Source of the DNA: Hysterangium stoloniferum
Lineage: Eukaryota; Basidiomycota; Agaricomycetes; Hysterangiales; Hysterangiaceae
Assembly: GCA_015178975.1 (NCBI GenBank)
Contig: WHVD01000168.1
Location: forward strand, 105,516 to 169,515
DNA: 64,000 bases
Reading direction: 5' to 3'
Shown here piece by piece: positions 10,572 through 53,150 of this stretch. Each line of letters begins with the position of its first letter. Positions within the stretch are counted from its first letter, which is position 1. A program made the position numbers and the translations under genes. The notes beneath the pieces are model-generated. The model did no database searches. It saw nothing but the letters and a program-made list of their open reading frames with translations, and had not been told where the DNA came from.

Positions 10572-12284
10572 TAGGTTATTGGCCCTGCAGACTTATTCAG
10601 ATTCATTGCCATGCAGATTTGTTCCTTCAAGTGGTTACTTATCATATTTGTTTTAGGTGGTTGTATAGAAGGGCATAGAAGCTGTGGTATTTGCACAGGA
10701 AGGGCTCTGGGGCAATACATTGAACTTGCAGGAGTAGGTGGCTGTATTAACAGGCTTAGAAGTCACAGCACTCACACTTTCCATTTCTTCTTCATTTTTT
10801 CACTATTCTAAATTGGCATCACACACGTATCCAAAATCGGGAGTGAGTATCACTTCCAAAAACTAGGGCAGGAGAACTATAGTACATGGTGTGTTTGTAT
10901 GAAAGCATATCTTGTTCACAAGGATGTCTGGGACCTCATTGATGGTTCAGAAACCCAACTGCCAGGTTCACCCTCTTCAAAACCAGTCAGCATGTTTATT
11001 AAAACACAATAACTTGCACAATCAGACTTGACTCTTGCTGTTGAACCAGAACAAAAATCCCTTACCTCCATGAAAGTGACCCAGTCATCTCTTGGGAAAA
11101 TTTGCATCAGGTCCATGTTGCCTGTGGATTCACGCCTGGTCCTTTGTCATCACTTCATTGCCATGAAAAAGAATGAGTCACAAAGTATGCCATGTTGGAT
11201 TGCTGCAGTCAAGCACACTGCACAGCATCTCAACCATACAACTACACCTCCAACCACTGACATAGGTCTCACCCTCTGTCACTGGTTGAAAACACATGAA
11301 GATGAAGAAGCTGTTCGTTGTGTGTGGTTTGGACCCATATGTACCCACATGTACTTACCATAGCACTATCTGTGTGTTGGCAATCTACCACCACTGGTCA
11401 TTCGAGTATGAGTCTGAGTCTGAGTTTGGTCACTCCTGGTGACTTCTGTGTCCTTATATCATCTATTCTAACAGAAGCCATTTTGGTGCTTACTGTTAGG
11501 ATACGTACAGGGCGGGTCTCCGGAGAAACCCGCAGAATATCCAGTAGGGGTAGGACTTGCCTTCAGCTTATAGGCTGTGCCCTCACTAGATCGTGTTGTC
11601 CAATTTCAGACAGGCAGAGGGGAATCCTGGGGAGTCTGGGTGGGGGTCGTGGGTCGAGGGGTCGTAGGTCGGAGGTCGTGGGTCATGAGTCAAGGTAGGT
11701 GAGAGAGATAGATGCGCCAGAGCTCACTAGTGTGAGCGGTGTGATTCAAGTAGGAGTTTAGAGCAGAAAATGTATTAGATTACTGGGGGGAATCTAAGCC
11801 GATTTTCTGACTGGATTGTATGTACAACATCTGCCAGTTTAAATAGACTGTGGTGTTAGGATACGTACAGGGCGGGTCTCTGGAGAAACCCGCAGAATAT
11901 CTGGTAGGACTTGGCTTCAGCTTATAGGCTGCACCCTCGCTAGATCGTGTTGTCCAATTTCAGACAGAATGGGAATCCCGGGGAGTCTGGGTGGGGGTTG
12001 TGGGTCGAGGGGTCGTAGGTCGGAGGTCATGGGTCGTGGGTCGAGATTGGTGAGAGAGATAGATGTGCCAGAGCCCGTGGGCTCCAACTAGTGTGAGCGG
12101 TATAATTCAAGGAGGGTTTTAGAGCAGAAAATGTATTAGATTACTGGGGGGAATCTAAGCCGATTTTCTGACTGGATTGTATGTACAGCATCTGCCAGTT
12201 TAAATAGACTGTGGAGTGAATGTCATACCAAATCCAGTAATAATGAAACGAAATGAGCAAAACATAAAATGGGAATAGTAAACA

Positions 12285-18560: not shown

Positions 18561-21500
18561 GCAGATCCAATCCAACTAATTTCAAAGATTGACCCTGTGA
18601 CTTATTGAAAGTCATAGAAAATGCTAGCCTGACTATAAACTGCCAACAATGTAGTTCAAATGGCACTTGTTTTGTAGTTGGAATTATTGTTATTCAAGGG
18701 ATGAATGCCAGCTCTCCTGCTGAAGGTCCTGTAATGATCTTTTCTTGAAGTACTCTGTGAGTCATTTGTATTAACTGCAGTCTTGTTCCATTAAAGAGCC
18801 CTTGTCTTGGATTGAAGTTTCAAAGAAGAATCAATGGCACTCCAGGTTTCAAATGCAATTTACTTGATGACAATCATTCGAAGTTGATTGAGTTTAGTAC
18901 TCAGGAGGATATAATGTCTCATTGCCTCCATCCTTGACACTGTCTGCACTGTAATGGGTTTGCTCAATCCCTGGAAATCTTTCAAAAAGCATGTCATTGA
19001 TTTGATCTACATCTGAATTTCCAGGACAGAGAATGGCCCACTCCAAGAAAAGCTCATCAGTAAGAACCTCAGGATCATGTATGTTTGAATACAAAGTTGA
19101 GACTAAATTATCCATTGTTGGTCCACATACCATGTGTTCAGGGACTTTAAACATATTATTGAGAGGTATGTCCTTTCCATGTCCAATATCCAAAAGCCAC
19201 TGAGCAAAAACAGCACTCTCTTGATCAGTAGGATCTACATGCATATTCTCAGTCAACAACAGAATCTTGACATTGTTCCAAAGGTGAGACCATGAGATAC
19301 ATGCACCAATTATATCTCTTTTGAACCTTTAGGAATGACAGACAATGTCTGTTGAAATTCACCACTCCATGCTACTGTAATGCCTCAAAAAGGAATGTTC
19401 TTGTTAAGGATATCTCTAAGGCTCCAATCTACTGTCTCACAGGCAAAGCAATTCAGCATTGGAACCTCATCCCAAATAATAAGGCTGACCTCTTTCATCA
19501 GATTGGTCTTATCTGAGCCTTTCTTCATTGTACACATGGATTTCTCATCAACCTCAGGGGGGATTTGAAACATGCTGTGAGATGTCCACCCACCACTCAG
19601 AATAAGTGCAATGCCAAAGGAGCAACACAGACTACAATGAATCCTTTGCCTCTGCAGGCATGTGCCAAGGTATTCCAAACAAATGATTTTCCAGTACTCC
19701 CAGGTCCATTCAAATATAACAGAAAATGGAATACAAGGAAAAGGGGATTTGCCATTGGATATATTCATTTTGAAAGACCCTCAAGTGGCCTGAGGTTCTT
19801 CTTACATACTTTGCTCACAGTTGTCAAAGGGCAACCTCTTTTGAAGATCTCAGGACCTGTGAAGGACAGTCTATCCTTCATTTCAAGCAGCCTGCATCTC
19901 ACATGGTCTACTTGAAGATAATAAATAATGGAAGTTGTGTCTTCAAGAGGCAAAGCTATGCAGACTGGATATCAATTATGGAAACTATTTGCTACTATTA
20001 TCAGCCAATGCTTTCCTTCTGATTGAGCTGCACTCTGGCATGAATTCAAAGGAGACATGTGTGATGTCTTGAAATACATTCTTCAGATGCATCTTTATCA
20101 GCCAGACACATCTGATGAGACAGTCCATGACTTTGGCCTCTTTAAGCTTGATAAAATTCTTCATGAAAGTAGGAAACCACTCTCAGAATACCCTCATATG
20201 CCTCAATATACAGAGCCATGAGAAGAGAGAGTGGGAAATCAATTCATCAATGAACAGAGGGTTTATGACCAGGCAACTGAGCATATGAAAGCAGATATAA
20301 ATATTGAAAAGTTGAATGAGGTCCAGAGAGTTGCATACAATGAAATTATGGATGCTGTCATTGCAAGGCATGAAACTGGAATAGATGGAAAGCTTTGTTT
20401 TTTGAATTCCATATGAAAAATTCTGGAAACTTGACATAGTGAATTGAATTGGCTGCTTGACCATGAAGGCCTATTGCATTTTTAGCATTGGCCTCAAAGT
20501 ATGTCATCAACTTGGGCTTGGAATGATGGGCAGCATCCAAAGCCTCTTCTGGGCATGCTCAGTATCAATATTATAATGCAACTGCTCATTAATGAGACAA
20601 TTGCCAACAATCACATCCCAATCATGAGTGTAGTTTGGCATGGTTGGATAGTGTGAGAGGGACTTTCCAGAATAGCAGAGGATCTTATCACTCTCATAGA
20701 GACCAAAGTCATGAACTCTGGCTTCTGTGAGACACATGTGCCACTGGTGATCCTCTTCAAGCAAACCACATGCAACACAAGCTTGTTGAAATGTGGGATA
20801 AGTCTCACCCTCAAATGTCTTGAGCTGTTCAAATGAGGTGGCACCTTTGACAACAGTGAGCAATGTATGAAGGTGGAATCTTCCCCACTGGCAATATTGA
20901 CAAAATGGATGCACCCTATGCAAAGGCCACATTGACAAGGCTTTCATGATTTAGTCTTGGGTAAAAATCTGAAATACTCAGGAAAGTCCATATAAAATGT
21001 ATCCTTGGCACACTGTCCATTATAACCAATTAGATCCTCAGCATTAACCTCAAAATAAATCATGAGAGTTGTCCCCAAATGCTCTGCCCTTTGTAAAGCC
21101 TGAGCAGGACCTTGATCACCATCAAAAACTACAGTGTTTCCCCCAGGGAGATGGACATGAAGTGCCATTACTGCAGGAACATGGGTGTGGAGTTCATTAT
21201 GCATTAATTGCCAGACAGACTCATGTGCATTGGCATAACATGCATCAAGGTACTGTTGAATCTCATCTGGTGCTGTTCCAAATTCCATAGTTGTATGATC
21301 ATGACCCTTGTAACAGTATTTATGCATGTACTTCATTGACCTATTGGTAAGGGTCAACTCTACATTGATGTGGCATTAAAAGGTGAGAAGCAAAATAGGG
21401 GAGTAAGCAACATGTCTGTTGTCATATGTAAATTTGGGAGTTTCATAAACCCTTCCATTGTTAGGGTGATGGCATGTTGGATAGCCTTCCTGATTGACAA

Positions 21501-23222
21501 TGGTGGATTCACACCACTCCTCTGGATGGTGTTTACTGCACTTCTTATCTACCATACAGGCAGCAGCATTTGGGTGATCAGTTCCACAGGGACCATGGGT
21601 CATGAGTTTCCCTACTAAATTAAATAGTCTGGGATGTGTTTCAGGATCTGGCAAACAGGCAGAAACCATTGAGTTGACATCTTCTGGTATCCTTGGCTTA
21701 TTCTGGTCATCAAACCATGTCAGGCAGTGCATATGTGGAAGACCACACTTTTGGAATTCAATAACATGATATGGGCTACTGTTCTACCAAGATGTGATCT
21801 TCTGTGATCATCTTAAGCAACTTAGCCTTCTTGGCAGCAAAGACATGGGAGACCAAATCAGGCTGATCAGCAGGGGTCTGGCCAGGAAGCAATTCATGGG
21901 TGACCTCCTCCCAATTGGGATTGGGAGTCATGGTGATGAAGCAGCTGGCATTGCCATACTTGCATGCAAATGTGAATAAATTCTGTAGACTTTACCTCAT
22001 ATCCCTTGAACCCCCAGTAAATGAAGAAGACAGTATTACCCTCTGACCAATACTATTAGCATCTGTGTTGACATCCTAATTTGTAAATGCCTCAACCACC
22101 TGGTTCTAGAGTTCTGCACATAACCTTGGTTGATTATCCTTCAGAAATCTCAATATTCACTGCTCTTTTACTGCCCAGGCATTGACAATATACTTCTGGA
22201 ATAGCTTTTGTGCATAAAAAAGTCTGGGAAATAGATGATAGGCATAATATTCACATTTGGTCACTTTATTATTACTTTTATCTTCATCTTCACCCTCTTC
22301 ATCCTGCTGTCCAGGCTGGGGCTGCCAATTTTGATTTGTATAGGGAATGTCCCATGACCAACCACACTCTCCCCTGGGAAAGAGCATCACATAATGAAGG
22401 GGTGTATAAATGGCTTGTGCTCATGCACATGATGGAACTGTCCCCCCCTTCTCTGAACAATAATATCCCTTGGATCACCATGACCTGTATCACCCTCTCC
22501 AAAGAGAATGACTACAAGTTCATCACTGGTTGGAAGGTTGTACCATCATGGATCATTAAAAGCCTTGTAGCTCAGTCCAACATGTAACCTTGGAGTCTCT
22601 CTGTGTTCTCAATCACTCATGTGCCTGGTGATAGAGTTCTATAAAAGGATTACATTGCTCCATCATATCCTGCAAGTCAGAATAGGTTTCATTGTTTAGG
22701 TTTTTATTTGCCTTGTGAGTCTGCCTTTGCTGTAATGTCTGCCTCAGTCCATCCTCCAGTGCCAATGCAGGATCATGGATGTAAAGCTGAGCATAACTAT
22801 GTGATACACCTTCTCTGTAAGGAATCAAAGAACCATGCTGGTGATATAATTTACCATGAATTTTGAAGACATATGGACCACCACCACCTTGCAAGACAGA
22901 CTCATCCAAATCGACACCCAGTGATGTAAATGCAAATGCATTATTATATGCAGGAATACTTTTGCAAAATTCCTTACCATTGTCTGTATTATCCTCAAAG
23001 AGGGACCTTAAAGTATGAGAGACTGGCTAAAGTATTGGGAGGGCCACCTTTCCTTGCTTGCAGCACTTGCCAAATTTTGGATGTCTCTTGGAGCTATTTG
23101 CCAGACACTCATCCATCCAGTGAAAGGCTCCACAGTCTGGACACTGTATGTTCATATGTCCCCAAGTCATGTCTTGGAAACCTGGCCTCCACAACTGGTT
23201 GCCATCGAATCATAAATGTGCA
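18561..23222 (-). pseudogene. Chimeric decayed Helitron (Rep/helicase)
   Basis: The minus strand encodes an N-terminal cysteine cluster (about 23150-23060), then a Helitron-like N domain (22909-22157). The HUH nickase motif PHMHCL is at about 21740, and the two-tyrosine motif KYMHKYCYKG at about 21325. The PIF1-type helicase follows, with Walker A GPGSTGKSF (about 19680), Walker B IIWDEVPM (about 19470) and the C-terminal NKSQGQS (about 18620). The Rep C-terminus and helicase N-terminus each occur twice: the 20947-20545 copy is followed by another Rep C-terminus at 20545-20405, so two Helitrons are joined near 20545. Stops and frameshifts abound. No TC or CTRR terminus was identified. Confidence 0.88.
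19745..20405 (+). other. Inverted internal segment of the Helitron
   Basis: This 0.66-kb piece encodes the helicase N-terminus on the plus strand (GYIHFERPSSGLRFFLHTLL through GIDGKLCFLNS), while both neighbours encode the adjoining protein parts on the minus strand. The left neighbour resumes at LYLNGPGSTGKSF and the right one ends KFPEFFIWNSK. Flipping it back would restore collinearity, which points to an in-place inversion. The right joint is at GAATTC near 20405. Confidence 0.75.
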
Positions 23223-23275: not shown

Positions 23276-23801
23276 TGTTAGGACTGGGAAACCCACTGGG
23301 ACCCGGAATGCACCCTATAAGTAGTATATCACATGATCTCACCACCAGACTCCACCTGGATAACCCAGACTCCATTCTATATGTGCCAACTCTCTGTATC
23401 ATATGAACTATGCACCAGACCCCCCTTGTTCTTAATCCATCTTTGCCCATTTGTCATCTGGTTTAGTTTACCACTGTGTTTCCCTATTTGTTTGACATCT
23501 GGTTTATTGTGTTATTGTACTCTTGCTATGCCTTTTTGTATGTCTAAGTTAGTGGTACAATAATCTACTAGTCTATATAGTCCATTAGTTATTTGTACAT
23601 ACAATCTGATCAGAAAATCAACTTAGTTTCTACTTGTCTTTTGCTCCTTGCATATTCTCAGAACCCACAGGTTTCCTGTCTGCTCCTGTTTGAAATAGGA
23701 CAATGTGATCTGCAAAGGTGCAGCACATAAGCTGAAGCCACATCCTTCCCAGAACTTCCACAGGTTTCCCTGGAGACCCACCCATGAGCCCTGCACTTAA
23801 C
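23276..23801 (+). repeat. Gyp1 5' LTR (LTR-A family)
   Basis: 526 bp, TGTTAGGACTGG to CTGCACTTAACA. It shares with the solo LTR-A copies the CAGAAAATCA segment, the CATAAGCTGAAGCCA segment and both termini. It is shorter than the roughly 0.84-kb LTR-A5. Confidence 0.8.
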
Positions 23802-23838
23802 AGTATTTTCTGATCAAATATCACAGATTGTCTTGATC

Positions 23839-25130
23839 ATGCCTCCAAGAAAGAAACCATCTGAACACCCAGAGCCCGCTACACTCCAGTCACCACTCAT
23901 TTTGTATACCAGTCAGACATGCAGACACAACCCAGATACCACAGATGAATCCCACTTTGAAGAAATACTGAAGAATCCAGATGCCTCCAAGCACAAGGAA
24001 GAGTCGACAGCCACCAACAAGGGAGGGCAAAGGTGTTGAAAACCCCCAACTACAGAATGCCCACATGCTGAGGACCCCACTTCTGAAGTTTTAGCAGGTA
24101 CTATAGATAAATTTATGACTCACTGGCTTGAAGAACAAAAGAAGAAGGAACAGGAACCTCCACAGTCAAAAGTCAATGCTCCAGAACCCTTCATGGGTTC
24201 CAACCCCAACAAACTGTCTGCCTTCCTCATGCAATGTCACTTCAATTTCCATGATCAACTTGCCACATTCTCCACAGACTCCTGAAAAGTCAACTGTGCA
24301 CTCTCAGGATCTGCATTGAAATGGTTTGAACTGGCTTTTAGTGGACTTACTGAAGAAGAGCTGATTTCACTTGATGATTGGAATGCATTTGATGAAGAAT
24401 TGGAAATGAATTTTGGCCCATACAACCTGACTGGAGAAGCCAATAATAGCCTTCCCAACCTTCACATGAAGGACAACCAGCACATCGTGGACTATATTGT
24501 CCAATTCAATAATTTTGCAGTGCATTGTCAATGGAGTGATTCCACACTCCACCATCAGTTCTACTTGGGTTTGCCTTCCCACCTCAAAGATGAAGTCCTG
24601 AAGGTGAGGATGGAAAACCCGAGACTCTTAAACATATGCATCTCAAAGCTCAAAATGCAGATGCATGTTATTGGGAATGCTGAGTGGAAGTTGGCCATGA
24701 GACACCTGTGGACAAATTCAACAAGTCCATGGTGAATAAAACCAACAACAACAACCCATCTACCAGTAACTCAAACTCTGCACAATCTGACTGGAAGAAT
24801 GACAAGAAATCTTCCAACAACAACAACTCTAGCAATACCAACAAAGGTCAGCAATCTGGCAAATATACTGGGAAACCTGACCTTACAGGCAAACTTGGAC
24901 CTGATGGCAAATCGACCCCACAAGAAAAACAGCATTGTATGGACAACAACCTCTGACTTTTGTGCAGAAAACCCAGTCATTGTGTCCTGGAATGCTTGAT
25001 AGTGAAGGCTAACTCTGCCAAGGGTTGTGCAGCCAATACTTCCTCCATGGAGTCCCTGTTGAAGGAGAAACCGGCTTCTGATCCAAAAAAAGAGTATGCA
25101 ACCCTCTGGACTCTGCACAGGTTGAGGGTT
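23839..25130 (+). pseudogene. Gyp1 gag
   Basis: The start ATG is at 23839 (MPPRKKPSEHPEPA). A retrotransposon gag domain follows at about 24180-24620 (LKWFELAFSGLTEEEL and VDYIVQFNNFAVHCQW). Then comes an Asn/Ser-rich linker (24735-24900) and a damaged zinc knuckle in which only CRKPSHCVLEC is left (about 24960-24995). A stop at about 24037, another at 24283-24285 and a frameshift near 24730 break it. Confidence 0.8.
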
Positions 25131-25183
25131 GCATTAACTCTTCATGCATTCTTGAGTTCACCCATCTTAATGCATCCACTCTT

Positions 25184-28100
25184 TTGAACTCTGACTCATT
25201 ATTTGTAAAATTTACTTGTGATATGATCCTGCACTCCATTTTCTCTGCTCTTCTGGATTCTGGCTCAACCCATTGTTTTGTAGATATTGAATTTGCCCGA
25301 AAAAAATTTGTTGTCAACCTATTCAATAAACCTGGTCAGACTTTGACTTTTCAATGGTACAAGCAATTTGGTTATCACCCAAGCTTGCAACCTCCCTATC
25401 CAGTTCCTGTGCAGAATATTACAGATGGTCACTTTCTATGTGACACAGTTGGACTCGAGTTGCTCAGTCATCCTAGGACATAACTGGCTCACCCATTACA
25501 ATCTATTGATTGACTGGGTATCAGGCAGTATTACTTTCTGGACACCCATGGCACCTGATATAACTGTATCATCCCTAGCCTTTTTGTGGCCTCTATGGCA
25601 TCCTTGGCTTTGGCAGAACCCACAGTAATCCCATCCATTTCCCTCATTAATGGAGCAGCTTTTATTAGGGCTACAAAATCGGATGGATCCCAGGTGTTCA
25701 TGATCAATTTGAAAGTTAATTAAGGAACCAGACATTTTGCAACTCCAGAATCTAAGCATATCACCAACCTAGAAGGCATCCTGGAAAAATATCATGACTT
25801 CACAGATGTTTTTAGTAAGCAAAAAGTTGACCAGCTCCCACCCCACAGACAGTACAACTTAAAAATTGACCTTGAAGACAGGGCCCAGCCACCCCTTGGA
25901 CATATTTACCAACTATCCTCCACAGAACTCTCTGCTATATGGGACTTCCTGGACAAACATTTGTCCATAGGTTTGATCTGACTATCAAAGTCTCCTTTCA
26001 GAGCACCCATTCTTTTCATCAGAAAAAAGGATGGATCCTTTAGACTATGTGTTGACTTCCACAGACTCAATACTGTCCCACAGAAAGATAAGTACCCACT
26101 CCCACATATTTCCAATCTACTTGATGCTCCATGGAATACCCAGATCTATACCAAGATAGAGCTCAAGCATGCCTACCACTTGGTACAGATTGCCAAGGGA
26201 GGTGACTGGAAAACCACTTTCAGACCTATTATGAACCTTTTGAATGGTTGGTAATGTCCTTCAGGCTAACCAACACTCCATCTGTTTTTCAACATTGTAT
26301 TAACAATATTTTCTCTGACATGCTTGATGTATGCATCATTGTTTATTTGGACAACATTCTTATCTACTCTGAGGATCCTGCAGTACATAATGAACAGGTC
26401 CATGAGGTTCTCCAGAGACTTCAACAACATGGTCTATTCACAAATGGTAAAAAATGTACTTTTGACATGGACTCTGTGAAGTATTTGGGTTTCATTATGG
26501 GACCTGACAGACTCTGGATGGATGAGGCCAAAGTACAAGTCATCAAATATTGGCCCAAACCCCAAAAAGTTAAAGATATCCAATCCTTCCTCAGATCTAC
26601 CAGTGGTTTATCTGCAAATATTCCGAGATCATGGTCCCCCTTACTTGTTTTACTTGTAAGGACACTCCATGGAATTTCAATGATAAGTGTTGTGCTGCTT
26701 TTAATCTTTTAAAAGATTCTTTTTCTTCAGCTCCCATTCTTTCACACTGTAAGTTGGGCCTTCTGCTCATTGTTGAAATGGACACCTTGGACTACACATT
26801 AGGAGCCATTTGTCAATCCAGGACTTCAACAGAGAAATCCACCTGGACTTTTACCAGACTGGAGCTCATTATGATGTCCATGACAAAGAACTTCTCACAA
26901 TTTTTGAAGCCTTCAAAGCATGGAGCCACTATTTGGAGGGTGCAGGAATTCTGGTTGACATTGGAACAGATCACAAAAACCTGGAATATTTTTTGACCAT
27001 GAAGCTTTGACCTGCTGGCAAGCCTGGTGGTCTAAATATCTATCAGCCTTTAATATGACCATCTGCTTTTGACCCAGCTGCCTTGGCAGAGAACCTGATG
27101 CTTTGACTAGATGATGGGATGTCTATCCCAAAGAGGTGAGTAATGACTATGCCACAGTAAACCTGCACAAGTTGAAACCCATATTCACAAATTCACAACT
27201 TACCACATCAGTCCACACAACTTACCCTGTTCATCCAGTCATGTGTGGAATTATCATCATGGATATTGAGAAATTACATCAAGATATTCTATCAGCAATT
27301 CCACTAGACCTGGTAACCAAGGCACATCTTGACAGCCCCATGGACCCCAGTCAACCCTGGTGGTCTCTAGACCAGCATGGTTTCATTAGACTTGACAATT
27401 GTATCTACATATGTACTGGAGTCTGATGGCCTCCACCTCAGGATCCTCCAGTACAAACATGATCACCCACTCTTGGGACATTTCAGGCTCAAAAAGACTC
27501 TGTCATTCATTCAGCACTATTGTAAATCTTGCATTACTTGTTTATGCTCCAAATCACAACATCACAAGCCATATGGCCTTCTGAAACAACTCCTGGTACT
27601 GGAATACCCATGGAATTCCATCTCTATCGATTTCATTGAACACCTGCCAGACTCTGAAGGCTATTCTGCCATTCTAGTCATTGTTGACAGATTCTCCAAG
27701 CAAGGCATTTTCATACCCACATATGATACCATGCAGTTAGGGGAACATTTTGTTATCCATGTATTTTCCAAGCATGGAGTCCCATTCCACATAACTTCTG
27801 ATTGAGCATCAGAGTTTGTATCTCACTCCTTTAGATCCCTTGAAAAATCCTTGGACACATGAAGTGTAACTTCATGTCCAGGTATCACCTGGAAGGTGAT
27901 GGAAAAACTGAGAATGTCAATCAGACACTGGAACAATGTCTCTGCATATATTGCAACTATCAACAGGACAATTGGAAATCCCTGTTACCCCTTGCAGAAT
28001 TTGCTTACAACAATGCACCCTCAGCCACTACTGGCATATCCCCTTTCTTTGCAAATAAGTGTTATAATCCCAATATCATAGTACACCTGGAATAGAATTT

Positions 28101-28700
28101 GGCCTCCACCTGTACTCAACAGTTTGTCATGAACCTCAATGAACTCCATCAAGAACTCCAGAAAGTGATAACATCCACCCAAGAACAATATCAACATTCA
28201 GCAGACAAGAACTGGATTTTGCCACCTAACTTTAAGATTGGTGACCATGTTTTTGTTAAAGCTCAATTCTTCCAGACTACCCATCCTTCTAAAAAACTCA
28301 CTGAAAAGTATTTAGGGCCATCCAAAATTATAGGACAACCCAGCTCTGTAACATGGACCCTGTGGCTTCCAGATAGCATACATGTGGTACACCTGGTATT
28401 TAATGTCTCTATGTTAGAACCATGTACTGCTAACACTATCCCAGACCACATACAATGTCTGCCCCCTCTAGTCATCATAGATGGAGAACCCAAGTTTGAA
28501 ATATCACAATTTTAGACTCAAGACTAGATAATTGTCAGTGCACTTGTAAACTGTTCTACTTGGTCAAGTGGGCAGGTTATGAGGGTACAGATGAAGAAAA
28601 TTCTTGGATTTTGGCCACAAAACTTGGGAATGCCTCAGAGATCATTACTGGTTTTCATACAGCTTACCCAGTCAAACCAGGGCCATTATTGTCTCTCTGA
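25184..28700 (+). pseudogene. Gyp1 pol with C-terminal chromodomain
   Basis: Protease: LLDSGSTHCFVD at about 25250-25285. RT: 25800-26620, where the catalytic box reads VYLDN instead of YLDD (about 26340), so the second aspartate is lost by G-to-A. RNase H: about 26760-27000. Integrase: zinc-binding region about 27450-27550, IDFIEHLP at about 27625, a TGA stop within the second-aspartate segment (about 27802), and DGKTENVNQ at about 27900. A GDHVFVKA domain is at about 28240 and a chromodomain (VKWAGYEGTDEENSW) at about 28565-28610. The frame ends at 28698-28700. Many further stops and shifts. Confidence 0.88.
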
Positions 28701-28878
28701 CTGCATTATCCACAGACCCTGTACATATATTGGACTCATCTCATTCTTCCTTGTTGCCCTATGTCTCTCTTGCTTTGACAGATTTTTGACTTGTCTCTTG
28801 TGTCTTAGGCAGATATCCTGCAGATATTCCTAATTTTTCACACATTTCATTAAAGTATTAAAATATATATCTATTATT

Positions 28879-29878
28879 CTAGTCCTCTATTTCAATAGGC
28901 AGGCCAGGTTTCTTTTTCCCTGCCTCAACAAACTCCTCATGAAGCTCTGTAAGCTCCATGGACCCCATGGGATCCTCAGACCCCTCAGACTCCTCAGAAT
29001 CCCTGGACCCCATGGTATCCTCATCCCCCTCAGACTCCTCAGAACCCCTGTCCTCCACAGCATCAGGCCACTCATAACCTTTGTAGTCCTCCATGAACTC
29101 CCAGAAGAGTCCATGGAGTTCCTGGAAACTACCCACCATTGTCTTTCTGACATTGTTGCCCTCCTGCAACAAGACATTTTGGGCTTTGATGCTAATGACA
29201 ATCCATCCCAATATATCCTCCAAGGCTCCCAGTTTCTCCATGTGACTTCCCAATTCCCAGGATCCAGACCCTGATGCATCCTGCACAAGGGAACACTTGG
29301 CCTTCAAGTGTCCACAAGGTGAGCATCCCAGGCCCCAACCAGACTTCTTGAAACATTCAGTGTTCCAGTCATTACAACCAGAGCACTGCAGGTCATTCTT
29401 GGTCTCCAGGCAGGCTGGATGATTCCTCTGAGTCTTCTGTCAAACATGAGTCAGTCTAGGACCTTCCATGGGTTGCTCACTTACCTTTTGGGGGCTTCCC
29501 AGTTCTCCCTCAGACTCCAACTCAACTTCAGCTGCTTTGTGCTATTGGGATGGTTAGCATAAAACTTCAATAAAATAAAATAACTTACTTTGCCCACAGC
29601 CACCATGGATGCCTGGTGCACTCTGCAGCAACTCAAGCTGCCTCCTTTTCTGCCTCTGCCTCTTTGGCCACTTCCTCCTCATCTTTCTTCCTTTTGTCCT
29701 CTGCCCCTTTCTCTGTGGCCACTTCTGCCTGGTACTCCTTCTCCAACTCAGCCTCTTCATGCTGTCAATGCTGTTCTTCATGCTGCTCAAGTAATTGAGC
29801 AGCCGTGAGAGGTGCCCAATAGGTGGAGCCCATGGAGGAACCAGCAGTTGGTTTTTGTGGCATTGGTTTTGGTCCCAT
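28879..29878 (-). pseudogene. Antisense accessory gene of the LTR-A gypsy family (Gyp1 copy)
   Basis: Lies opposite to Gyp1, between chromodomain and 3' LTR. Exon 1, 29878-29589, starts MGPKPMP and is rich in Glu, Lys, Ala and Gln, a probable coiled coil. Intron 1 is 29588-29542 (GTAAGT..CTAAC..AG). Exon 2 is 29541-29485. Intron 2 is 29484-29437 (GTAAGT..CTGAC..CAG). Exon 3, 29436-28879, is open for 185 codons. Exon 3 begins with six cysteines spaced C-x2-C-x6-C-x9-C-x2-C-x6-C, as in Zn(II)2Cys6 clusters, though the usual basic residues are missing. It ends in an acidic repeat (DSEESEG twice). Exon 1 has two TGA codons and a 1-nt loss. The function is unknown; DNA or RNA binding is a guess. 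Confidence 0.75.
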
Positions 29879-29923
29879 AGTGACAACATGGGGGTATGAA
29901 AGAAAGAAGATAATTTATATTTT

Positions 29924-29948
29924 GAATTTTTTATATAGGCTCCTCACA
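29924..29948 (-). promoter_or_regulatory. TATA-like box of the antisense gene (Gyp1)
   Basis: On the minus strand GAGCCTATATAAAAAATTC lies about 55 bp before the ATG at 29878. The second family copy has GAGCCTATATATAAATTTG at the same distance. The upstream GGAAGGTAAGGTTCAAATG is also shared by both. Confidence 0.65.
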
Positions 29949-30039
29949 TTTGAACCTTACCTTCCAGACCACCTGATGTCTTGACACATACAGTAAGTGC
30001 AACCAACAAAGTCTCTAAAGCCTCCATGGGACTTCAGCC

Positions 30040-30183
30040 TTAAAGAGAGGGTACTGTTACAACCAGAAAACCTGCCAGGACCCAGACCTCATTCTAGATG
30101 TGCCAACACTCTGTATCGTACAAATGACACACTGGACTCCCTTGTTCTCACACTGGCTCCATGTTTTGTGTGACAATTGTGAG
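30040..30183 (+). repeat. Gyp1 polypurine tract and truncated 3' LTR
   Basis: AAAGAGAGGGTAC directly precedes the LTR start TGTTACAACCAG (30056). About 128 bp of LTR can be followed before LTR-C1; the remainder is not recognisable. The same tract next to the LTR recurs at 52559, which fixes the orientation of the LTR-A family. Confidence 0.8.
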
Positions 30184-30818
30184 TGTGAGAGGTACAGCGA
30201 AATATACTTAGGAAATATAGTCTGGATGAGCTCATACTATATTTCCATTATTATTTCTACTTTCTCTCTATTTTATTATACACTTATAATTAGTTTGACA
30301 ACCTATGTATGTGGTATATTGACTCTTGTGGGCACATACATACCAGACTTATGTATTCTAGTGCCCGTAGTTAGAACTCAGACACTTTTTACCCTGCAAC
30401 CACGACTTACCTAGACACCAGTTAGTGTCCTGTAAGTTGTGATTGGGGTATCATCTCGACCGTCACAGACAGGCTTTAACTATCTATGCAATCAGAGTTT
30501 AGAACTGTACCAGTCGAAACTCCACCTTTATCTCAATCCACGCGGACCACATCCACACTACTCTGTTATTTGACTCTCTCGTTACTCTCTTCTACACTTG
30601 AGCAGTCATTCAGAATCATACTTAACAGTCAATTCTCCTTATTCGTTTTAGCTCTCTACTTTACTTTAGATAGCTATTTCACTCAACCGTATTGAACTAA
30701 ATGGTCAATACGTGTTTGGTCTGTATTAGACTTAGATAGTCAATACATCTTTGTGTCATACCTAAACGGTCTATATTCTTCATATATAGAACGGTTAGAA
30801 CTTCCACCACTCTTCACA
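30184..30818 (+). repeat. LTR-C1, solo LTR
   Basis: 635 bp, TGTGAGAGGTACAGCG to CCACTCTTCACA, with a perfect GTGAG duplication (30179-30183 and 30819-30823). It shares TTCTTCATATAT, ACGGT and the CTCTTCACA end with the Gyp2 3' LTR (53151-53796). It is therefore probably a relative of that chromovirus. It is inserted in the Gyp1 3' LTR. Confidence 0.9.
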
Positions 30819-31019
30819 GTGAGGAGCCAGTGTGATTTGATTTAGCCTCTTTTGGTCAGGTGGAGAACAAAGAGAGTTTATATTTGTTGAGCAGTTGGAA
30901 CAAAGGAGAGTTTAACTAAATTGTGATCTATCTAACAGATTCTATATCATTTTGTAATTCCATCAAATTCAGGGATATGAATGGGATCTTAAATTGATTG
31001 ATTACATACATATTCTATG

Positions 31020-31760
31020 TGTGAAAAATTGAAAACTGACTAATGTCGGTAGGCTGACGGGGACTGATCGGAAGGACTTGGCTTCAGCTTATGTGCTGTG
31101 CCCTTGCAATTATCTGTCGGGTGTCCTTAAATTTCAGATGGGCAGAGAGTCCTAATGAATACCTCTCGGCGGAACTACCGATTGGAACTGAAGGATAAGT
31201 CGAGTGTCAGGCCAAGGGGTCAGAGACCGAGAGTGGGCGAGCACACACAAAGGCAGATAGTGGAGTACTTAGTATGAGACTTCTGGAGGTGTAAGAGGGT
31301 ATTCTGAGTCGATATTCTGATTGCCTAGTAACTACAACTACAATGGGTTCATATACAAGTATTCGGCATCTAGGAAATACTAATTAGGAGAAGAGCAGAA
31401 AATGGTATTGACAAATAAGCTTGACTAGGAATGGGAAGGTTATGATTAGTTCGGAGGCCGTGAGATAACCGAGAGCGGAATTACGAGAAAAGGAAATAGT
31501 CCGAGAGTTACAAGTATATTTAGACATATGTGAAACATAGAGTAAAATGGATCATCATAACGAAAAGGGACATATCAGAGTTTAACCAGATAGTATGAGT
31601 ATATTTTGATGGGGGCATAAACAGAGTTTGATCACCTGCAAAGGCATACGTCAGTGTTGGGAAAATGATGGCTTCCAATGTGGGGACTTGAGCGATGACT
31701 TGAATCGTCGATAGGTGGTGATAACCTTGGGAACCATCGGGTTGCGACATGGTCGTAACA
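31020..31760 (-). repeat. LTR-B3, solo LTR
   Basis: 741 bp, TGTGAAAAATTG to CATGGTCGTAACA on the plus strand, with a perfect CTATG duplication (31015-31019 and 31761-31765). The 197 bp between LTR-C1 and this element show nothing recognisable. Confidence 0.88.
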
Positions 31761-31849: not shown

Positions 31850-32640
31850 GATAGGAGGATAACCCAAAACTTTAAAAATTATTTATCCACTAAAGTATAT
31901 ATATTTATATTGTTTGTTGTAAAATTAATATTTAATCAAATTCAGTTGATTAGGTATCACTCTGAAGAATGCAAAAATATTAATATTTATCCTATATCTG
32001 ACAAAATTTAGTCAAACAATCATCTGTAGATTATTCTTTTGGAATAAATTGCACAATGGGGATTGGTACCCTAGATAGTTCTGGTTAACTCTCTAAACCA
32101 ACTAAATTTAAATTATATGCAATATATTTGAAAGTTTGCTTGTATACAAGAGAATACATCATAACCCAAAGATTAAGTCATAACCCAAATAATCTTGTTT
32201 AACCCAAATGATCTAGGTTAACCCAAATGATCTAGGTTAACCCAAATAATCTAGGTTAACCCAAATAATCTAGGTTAACCCAAATAATCTAGGTTAACCC
32301 AAATAATCTAGGTTAACCCAAATAATCTAGGTTAACCCAAATAATCTAGGTTAACCCAAATAATCTAGGTTAACCCAAATAATCTAGGTTAACCCAAATA
32401 ATCTTGTGTAACTATGTCATTTGTGTGTATTTTAAAAAGGCATGCATATTTTAAAGATGAAATTTCAGGTAATTAAATATAAACTCATAGAATAAGTTGT
32501 CATGGCCAGAAGGAATAGACTCACTTGGAAAATATGAGGATTATTCAGTAAAATTTTGTATATTCAATAAAGTGTGACCATCCTCCATAATCCCACTGGA
32601 CTATACAAAATTGAAGGGGTTTATATTCCATGATATGGTT
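31850..32640. repeat. R3-1, AT-rich dispersed repeat
   Basis: Aligns over long stretches with 41690-42330, more weakly with 44170-44700, and in its 3' part with 51974-52140. Landmarks are TTATCCACTAAAGTATATAT, GATAGTTCTGGTTAAC and CAGTAAAATTTTG. There is no coding capacity and the ends are undefined. It may be a non-autonomous DNA element or an LTR. Confidence 0.75.
32182..32409. repeat. 19-bp minisatellite in R3-1
   Basis: Twelve adjoining units of AACCCAAATAATCTAGGTT or close variants. The ten units starting at 32201 are perfect or one base off, and the edge units are variant (ATCTTGTTT, ATCTTGTGT). The other R3 copies keep one or two units at this place. Confidence 0.95.
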
Positions 32641-52440: not shown

Positions 52441-52559
52441 TGTAACGAAGACGAATGTAGATGAGTCTGACATACAGAGTCCAGTGGGAATCCCGGTGAA
52501 CTGATAATGGGTGCATATAAGTTGGTGCCCGGAGTCTGGTGGGATTTCCAGTCGTAACA
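52441..52559 (-). repeat. 3' LTR remnant of a second LTR-A element (GypA-2)
   Basis: The last 119 bp on the plus strand of an LTR-A (ending CCAGTCGTAACA), followed by GTACCCTCCCTTTATGCC, the complement of the polypurine tract AAAGGGAGGGTAC. The rest of the LTR is cut off at 52441. Confidence 0.85.
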
Positions 52560-52684
52560 GTACCCTCCCTTTATGCCGAAGTCCCAAAGAGGCTCTAGAC
52601 CTCGATAAGGTTCTTGTCGGCTACGCATATGTGTCAAAAGGTCATGTCGGTTACACATGTGTCAAAGAGTCATGTGATCTGGAA

Positions 52685-52720
52685 GGTAAGGTTCAAATGC
52701 AACGAGCCTATATATAAATT
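52685..52720 (+). promoter_or_regulatory. TATA-like box of the antisense gene (GypA-2)
   Basis: GGTAAGGTTCAAATG is followed by GAGCCTATATATAAATTTG, about 52 bp before the ATG at 52768. Its counterpart in Gyp1 is at 29924-29948. The direction is opposite to retrotransposon transcription. Confidence 0.65.
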
Positions 52721-52767
52721 TGAAAAAATAGAAATTCTTCTTCTTTATTACCCCCATCATCGACAAA

Positions 52768-53150
52768 ATGGGACCAAAGCCAATGCCAAGATGGGGGATG
52801 CCAACCGCTGGGCCTTCCACGGGTACTGTGCATCGGGCGACTTGGAGCATGGCCCAACTCTTGGCGCGGTGAGAAGAGCATTGCCAACTTCGCAAAGAAG
52901 CAGAAAGGGAAGCCAGGGAGGCCGAGGAGGCCTTAGACAGGGAGTGCCAGGCAGCATTGGCCGTGGAGGAGGCTGAGAGGCAGAGGAAGAGGGATGAGGA
53001 GGAGGCTGTGCGGGTGGCTGCAGACAGAGCCGCAATTGTCGTGGGAAAGGTAAGTCCCAATTTGACTTGTCGTTTTTTTTGACTGACTGTTATTTTCAGC
53101 GCAAGGTGACAGAAGTCAAGTCGGAGTCTGAGGGGGAGCCGGAGAGCCCC
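52768..53150 (+). pseudogene. Antisense accessory gene, second copy (GypA-2), truncated
   Basis: Exon 1, 52768-53049, has 94 codons in phase: MGPKPMP, MAQLLAR, then a Glu/Arg/Ala-rich probable coiled coil ending AAIVVGK. The only lesion is one TGA (about 52870) where CGA is expected. Intron 53050-53099 (GTAAGT..CTGAC..CAG) occupies the same place as intron 1 of the Gyp1 copy. Exon 2 from 53100 (RKVTEVKSESEGEPESP) is cut after 51 nt by the Gyp2 LTR. The alignment of both copies including the intron is the main reason to believe the gene is real. Confidence 0.75.

Follow-up and report, generated by a model that had tools for sequence, protein, structure and literature searches.

Antisense accessory genes are already known from plant Retand-type elements and from some retroviruses. 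In the plant gypsy elements Retand, Grande and RIRE2 such a gene is located between pol and the 3' LTR and conserved in most copies, according to the sections of the source that describe them (PMC11963269); the same sections state that the Retand-type antisense ORFs are suspected to bind DNA, and that a nuclear protein is reported for Grande. HBZ and the related antisense genes of HTLV and STLV are spliced, originate from an LTR element and encode a nuclear regulator, as outlined in an excerpt on these viruses (PMC10186651). Both the plant and the retroviral antisense proteins are, in the parts of the two sources that concern them, able to work in the nucleus (PMC11963269, PMC10186651). No report of a spliced antisense gene in a fungal chromovirus was found in the literature searched, most subscription papers being outside its reach. 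A 2010 survey of chromodomain gypsy elements with an 'add. ORF' is reportedly by Novikova and co-workers. The legend of one of its figures gives the function of this 'add. ORF' as unknown (PMC2864245). As in the present case, one of the surveyed elements has an ORF in addition to gag and pol, but the element, strand, introns and domain are unspecified in the text portions concerned, and the word antisense is absent from the main text (PMC2864245).

The locus analysed here lies in a window (the whole 64-kb stretch of Hysterangium stoloniferum DNA that was analysed) and is part of a degraded element on the plus strand, with the following components:

23341..30183, plus strand: degraded chromovirus (gypsy with chromodomain), consisting of LTR remnants and gag, reverse transcriptase, integrase and chromodomain pieces; outer limits approximate
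23341..23802, plus strand: 5' LTR remnant; limits approximate, the end set by resemblance to the point where the LTR of L049, a younger copy, ends
24286..24735, plus strand: gag piece (PF03732, E 1.1e-9)
26206..26712, plus strand: reverse transcriptase piece (PF00078, E 5.2e-17)
27371..27805, plus strand: integrase piece (PF00665, E 0.016, and PF17921, E 0.0061, each below the cut-off)
28500..28700, plus strand: chromodomain, which is the end of pol (PF00385, E 1.7e-5, exactly at the cut-off)
30055..30183, plus strand: start of the 3' LTR, interrupted by another repeat; end approximate

The two LTR ends have a common stretch of only 93 nt with 74% identity, and a different repeat begins at about 30184, next to the start of the 3' LTR. 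As pol is broken and spread over many short frames in the ORF list, the element is an old, degraded and dead chromovirus copy. A broken Helitron adjoins it at 20500-23030 on the minus strand, with Helitron_like_N matches at 21776-21991 (E 1.1e-15) and 21376-21783 (E 3e-4, below the cut-off), and a tandem array of a 19-nt unit occupies 32124-32450.

Opposite to pol, the minus strand from 29878 to 28879, between the chromodomain and the 3' LTR, holds an antisense gene, listed here from its upstream region to its end:

29953..29967, minus strand: 15-nt block, the most conserved part of the 150 nt upstream of the ATG
29931..29937, minus strand: TATATAA, 59 nt 5' of the ATG
29589..29878, minus strand: exon 1, ATG at 29878 (MGPKP...), in the window copy interrupted by two TGA codons and shifted in frame
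29542..29588, minus strand: intron 1 (GTAAGT ... TAG), from aligned copies
29485..29541, minus strand: exon 2, 19 codons, acidic, open in the window
29437..29484, minus strand: intron 2 (GTAAGT ... CAG), from aligned copies
28879..29436, minus strand: exon 3, an open frame in the window, which encodes the cysteine cluster, a helical region and the acidic tail
29293..29385, minus strand: six-cysteine cluster C-x2-C-x6-C-x9-C-x2-C-x6-C, within exon 3

The initial annotation had described a gene antisense to pol just before the 3' LTR, with a TATA-like box, GTAAGT donors, fungal-type branch motifs and six cysteines in exon 3. The placement holds, the gene lying between the chromodomain at 28500-28700 and the LTR start at 30055, the promoter and splice signals are all present in the sequence, and the cysteines are confirmed at 29293-29385 in the spacing given. 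The window copy is not an intact gene: the length of its exon 1 is not divisible by three and the frame is interrupted by the two TGA codons; this copy of the gene is dead. A 129-aa open frame at 29554-29943 differs from the conserved exon 1 frame. The cysteine pattern, searched in the wider form C-x2-C-x6-C-x5-12-C-x2-C-x6-C, has a single match in the whole window, while 60 dinucleotide shuffles of the window give a mean of 0.017 matches (one shuffle with one match). No second exon 3 is present elsewhere in the 64 kb. A second fragment of the antisense promoter and LTR start is located at 52536-52788 on the minus strand, about 80% identical to 29858-30078.

The genome searched for further copies is the Hysterangium stoloniferum assembly, which comprises 111 Mb in 554 contigs. 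Exon 3 of the window gives at least 150 scored matches (the best 150 of 1227 first-look candidates) and exon 3 of L049 also at least 150 (the best 150 of 1382). A large family of elements in this genome has the antisense gene as one of its conserved components. At 26 of the 30 best-scoring loci the pol tail or chromodomain lies on the opposite strand past the antisense stop; among the four exceptions, L007 has pol on the same strand, and L013, L015 and L021 have none within 1.5 kb. An opposite-strand chromodomain is likewise found in 18 of 20 larger loci, which were selected for an exon 3 without a stop (absent from L033 and L036). When approached from pol, 50 of 60 matches (the best 60 of 150 listed) have an antisense match 205-218 bp away on the other strand, and the remaining ten may have a partner outside the 93 antisense places compared. 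A distant direct repeat is found in ten of the 20 larger loci, one of which belongs to a different element. Six LTR pairs were inspected by eye, the window copy with its degraded LTRs being excluded, and the 5-bp target duplication is perfect in five elements and matches at 4/5 positions in one.

The protein domains of L049 (Retrotrans_gag, RVP_2, RVT_1, RT_RNaseH, Integrase_H2C2 and Chromo) identify the host element as a chromovirus, i.e. a Ty3/gypsy element with a chromodomain. Its LTRs are 97.9% identical and pol is open for 1304 aa in several copies, and the family has therefore been active recently. Many near-identical young copies sit at contig ends (for example C16:973, C103:971, C25:1157, C545:844 and C33:528), which would most simply be explained by the assembly breaking at young repeats. 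Stops in exon 3 occur in 43 of the 150 antisense matches listed versus 10 of the 150 pol matches at equal query length, as counted from tables that cover not quite the same elements. Stop-bearing antisense copies are found even beside a pol of 1304 aa, and consequently the antisense gene is not needed in every copy. The correlation between pol and antisense distances is weak (r 0.30, with 124 of 2000 permutations equally high).

In order to follow the exon structure through the family, 44 of 50 regions were aligned, L007, L010, L011, L016, L026 and L030 being removed before counting. Intron 1 starts with GT in 42/44 and ends with AG in 42/44 copies, the corresponding figures for intron 2 being 43/44 and 44/44, and a branch motif resembling CTNAY lies ahead of the acceptor in 38/44 (intron 1) and 42/44 (intron 2). 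The intron bodies diverge freely, with a mean heterozygosity of about 0.50, which is close to the 0.43-0.47 at third codon positions of exons 2 and 3. A lack of intact homologues in other elements had been named beforehand as refuting the gene; this did not come true, as the spliced model forms a single open frame, of 281-312 aa, in seven of the 44. A gene model in the nr database, P0002 from Hysterangium stoloniferum, has its exon 1/exon 2 junction precisely where the intron is predicted, and departs from the predicted structure at the exit from exon 2. A TATA-like match is present in 27 of the 31 copies in which the ATG is kept, at a median of 59 nt before it, and the 15-nt block has a mean heterozygosity of 0.036 (29 copies, L002 and L012 excluded). 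This block resembles a donor site, yet it lies upstream of the TATA-like box. The TATA-like promoter region is situated between the LTR and the antisense gene, that is, inside the element and outside the LTR.

The pattern of substitution bears on whether the exons encode a protein. At the three codon positions the heterozygosity amounts to 0.17/0.20/0.43 for exon 2 and 0.32/0.27/0.47 for exon 3, and the codon periodicity is weaker in exon 1 (0.31/0.38/0.39), where all 44 rows are counted, frame-broken ones included. A dN/dS near 1 had been named by the initial annotation as evidence against the gene; the median pairwise values are well below 1, namely 0.21 in exon 1 (8 copies, 28 pairs), 0.17 in exon 2 (36 copies, 460 of 630 pairs usable) and 0.27 in exon 3 (the 35 copies, out of 44, with an open frame of at least 140 aa, 568 of 595 pairs usable), from pairs that are non-independent, that include 20 loci picked for openness and among which young pairs with small dS are few. 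Across a 420-nt part of exon 3 all 35 of these copies have an open antisense frame, for which they were selected, and the other five frames are open in 0, 0, 2, 0 and 3 copies. Coding in another frame across exon 3 is rejected, as at most 3/35 copies are open in any such frame. That the antisense gene is conserved and protein-coding is almost certain, and the combined data support a spliced antisense gene that belongs to the gypsy chromovirus and is maintained by purifying selection.

The predicted protein is best seen in a complete copy, L037, where an N-terminal helix rich in Ala, Glu and Arg is followed by an acidic linker, a basic stretch, the cysteine cluster, another helical region and a tail in which 15 residues are acidic and 4 basic, the helices being judged from sequence. 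The cluster is positioned mid-protein, at about residue 146 of 298. An acidic repeat tail had been proposed, of which the acidic tail is general and the extra repeat is found in one of 31 aligned copies, the window's own. Of the 44 copies, 32 retain the complete six-cysteine motif, with x9 and x6 invariant in each; among the 12 others, eight stop prematurely and four show an altered or missing cysteine. Zn(II)2Cys6 clusters have the spacing C-x2-C-x6-C-x5-12-C-x2-C-x6-8-C, and this rule is satisfied by the cysteines of the antisense protein in these 32 of the 44 copies. Zn_clus (PF00172) is also the sole Pfam family that matches many copies (24 of 31 at E of 10 or less, best E 0.0015), but the gathering cut-off of 21 bits is unreached in all 31 copies scanned, the best score being 19.0 bits. 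Moreover, the halves of the profile are swapped, the best stretch matching the opposite half in 9 of 10 matching copies. Owing to the sub-threshold scores and the swapped order of the halves, the protein is not filed as Zn(II)2Cys6. Of the original Zn2Cys6 proposal the spacing is retained, while membership in Zn_clus fails in all 31 copies scanned; the protein may still work like a Zn(II)2Cys6 factor. The likeness to the fungal factors of this class (PF00172) consists of the near-canonical six cysteines, the helical stretch after them and the acidic tail, whereas the scores below the Pfam cut-off, the swapped halves and the location of the cluster in the middle of the protein set it apart. A profile comparison to a structure database returns chains such as talin, none with an E-value better than 0.0013, through the helical part and not the cysteines. 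The genome contains 83 matches to PF00172, none of which, as compared by eye, is at a listed antisense place. Some of these matches form clusters, partly in one open frame (C56:27390-45410, C115:74483-75050 and C85:76115-76709), and these are different proteins with more than one zinc cluster.

Locus L046 holds another chromovirus, which is 51% identical over 818 aa to the protease-RT-RNase H frame of L049 and 47% identical in the chromodomain. This second family also has an antisense ORF between the chromodomain and the 3' LTR, with the spacing C-x2-C-x6-C-x8-C-x2-C-x6-C, and a genome search with this ORF gives 153 matches, many of them fragmentary. Its gene structure is known from three copies only (L046, L051 and L052): L051 has three exons that read as a single open frame, exon 3 opening with the cluster; the model of L052 does not stay in frame, and its intron 2 begins with AT instead of GT; L046 is without a segment around the junction of intron 1 and exon 2. 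Zn_clus has no match among the three copies. The alignment from a profile comparison between the two families is confined to the cysteine cluster (E 0.008, probability 4.8%), and common descent of their antisense genes is likely from position and gene plan. Searches of nr with the antisense protein match two proteins, both from Hysterangium stoloniferum; no relatives outside this species came from the protein-database searches or IMG/VR, the genome-level search being of this species.

In comparison with the described systems, the antisense location between pol and the 3' LTR is a feature found both in Retand, Grande and RIRE2 and here. The Retand-type elements are plant elements and non-chromoviruses, carry the TRP28 domain (PF04195) and have no six-cysteine cluster in the portion of the source that describes them (PMC11963269), whereas the fungal gene has the cluster and is without TRP28, PF04195 being absent from the matches of the 31 family 1 copies and of family 2. 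To HBZ, as excerpted, the likeness is that of a spliced antisense gene of an LTR element, splicing being deduced here from conserved splice signals. HBZ has a bZIP domain and a TATA-less promoter in the 3' LTR, in the same excerpt (PMC10186651), in contrast to the cysteine cluster and the TATA-like box outside the LTR in the fungal gene; bZIP has no match in family 1 (31 copies), and the best score in family 2 is 16.5 versus a cut-off of 27.6 bits.

The following reading is preferred. A lineage of fungal chromodomain gypsy elements bears an accessory gene in antisense orientation, placed between pol and the 3' LTR, which would be transcribed from the minus strand and then spliced. Its introns would persist through transposition, as expected from the retrotransposon cycle, since the genomic RNA is of the opposite strand, where these stretches do not constitute introns. 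The product of about 300 aa would bind zinc, enter the nucleus and act in trans on the promoters or chromatin of the element, most likely as a transcription regulator. A trans-acting regulator is favoured because of the cluster, the helices and the acidic tail, the promoter apart from the LTR, and the tolerated loss in single copies, which is expected of a diffusible factor. By analogy, the best reading is that such a regulator would work like HBZ of HTLV or the plant Retand antisense ORFs. We give the whole account, an antisense accessory gene in a fungal chromovirus lineage with a trans-acting nuclear regulator as its product, a probability of roughly 0.5; transcription regulation as the main role of the protein falls somewhat short of even odds. 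An ancient class of fungal chromoviruses with its own intron-bearing antisense transcription regulator, built around a permuted-looking Zn2Cys6 cluster and retained in two families with 51% identity in pol, as an HBZ-like circuit of independent origin, can be put forward only tentatively.

The features of the protein could also suit a nucleic-acid-binding cofactor of replication or integration, such as a particle component, an RNA chaperone or a chromatin tether, as a zinc-cluster-like fold, basic residues and helices are compatible with RNA or chromatin binding and the host element already reads chromatin via its chromodomain. However, a CCHC knuckle is present in sense frames of five of the 20 large loci and in a gag-side ORF of family 2, and the nucleic-acid-binding task therefore has a known holder. 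A promoter of its own and antisense splicing would also be odd for a particle protein that is proportional to Gag, and a cofactor instead of a transcription regulator is unlikely. That the gene is under long-term selection and yet dispensable in single copies could alternatively reflect a diffusible suppressor of host silencing (RNA interference, DNA methylation or heterochromatin). The fast divergence of the protein, which is barely alignable between families with 51% identity in pol, would fit such a function, but no known suppressor domain is found among the Pfam matches of the 31 copies, and we hold this explanation for rather improbable. The promoter block is more conserved than the coding exons, as might be anticipated if the antisense RNA itself were functional and restrained the sense RNA, with the protein being secondary; the hbz RNA of HTLV, in the excerpt available on it, holds both roles (PMC10186651). 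On the other side are the dN/dS of 0.17-0.27, the invariant cysteine spacing and the conserved splice sites, which indicate that the protein matters and make a primarily RNA-based function very improbable. A chance open frame or a hitchhiking fragment of a host gene, for which the broken state of the window copy taken alone might speak, has a negligible probability given the large family, the near-constant distance from pol and the location inside LTR pairs with target duplications, and a chance frame is rejected by dN/dS, conserved splicing and the 0.017 motif matches per shuffled window.

In the tentative reading of an ancient chromovirus class with its own antisense regulator, the antisense introns would turn each element into a natural counterpart of the spliced reporters by which retrotransposition is detected. 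A selected and spliced antisense gene in fungal chromoviruses would also mean that LTR elements have arrived at such circuits repeatedly, and genes of this type might account for some of the orphan cysteine-cluster proteins in fungal annotations.

An Rfam scan of positions 28000-31600 of the window gave no match above the Rfam cut-offs. An 18-nt motif, GCACATAAGCTGAAGCCA, is repeated on both strands with at most two mismatches and is present in 32 of 52 loci. In the window it is found at 11912, 12343, 17583, 23723, 31079, 38982, 42550 and 55573. It lies inside the LTRs of L034 and L049 and also beside other repeats of the window, and is possibly a shared promoter core.
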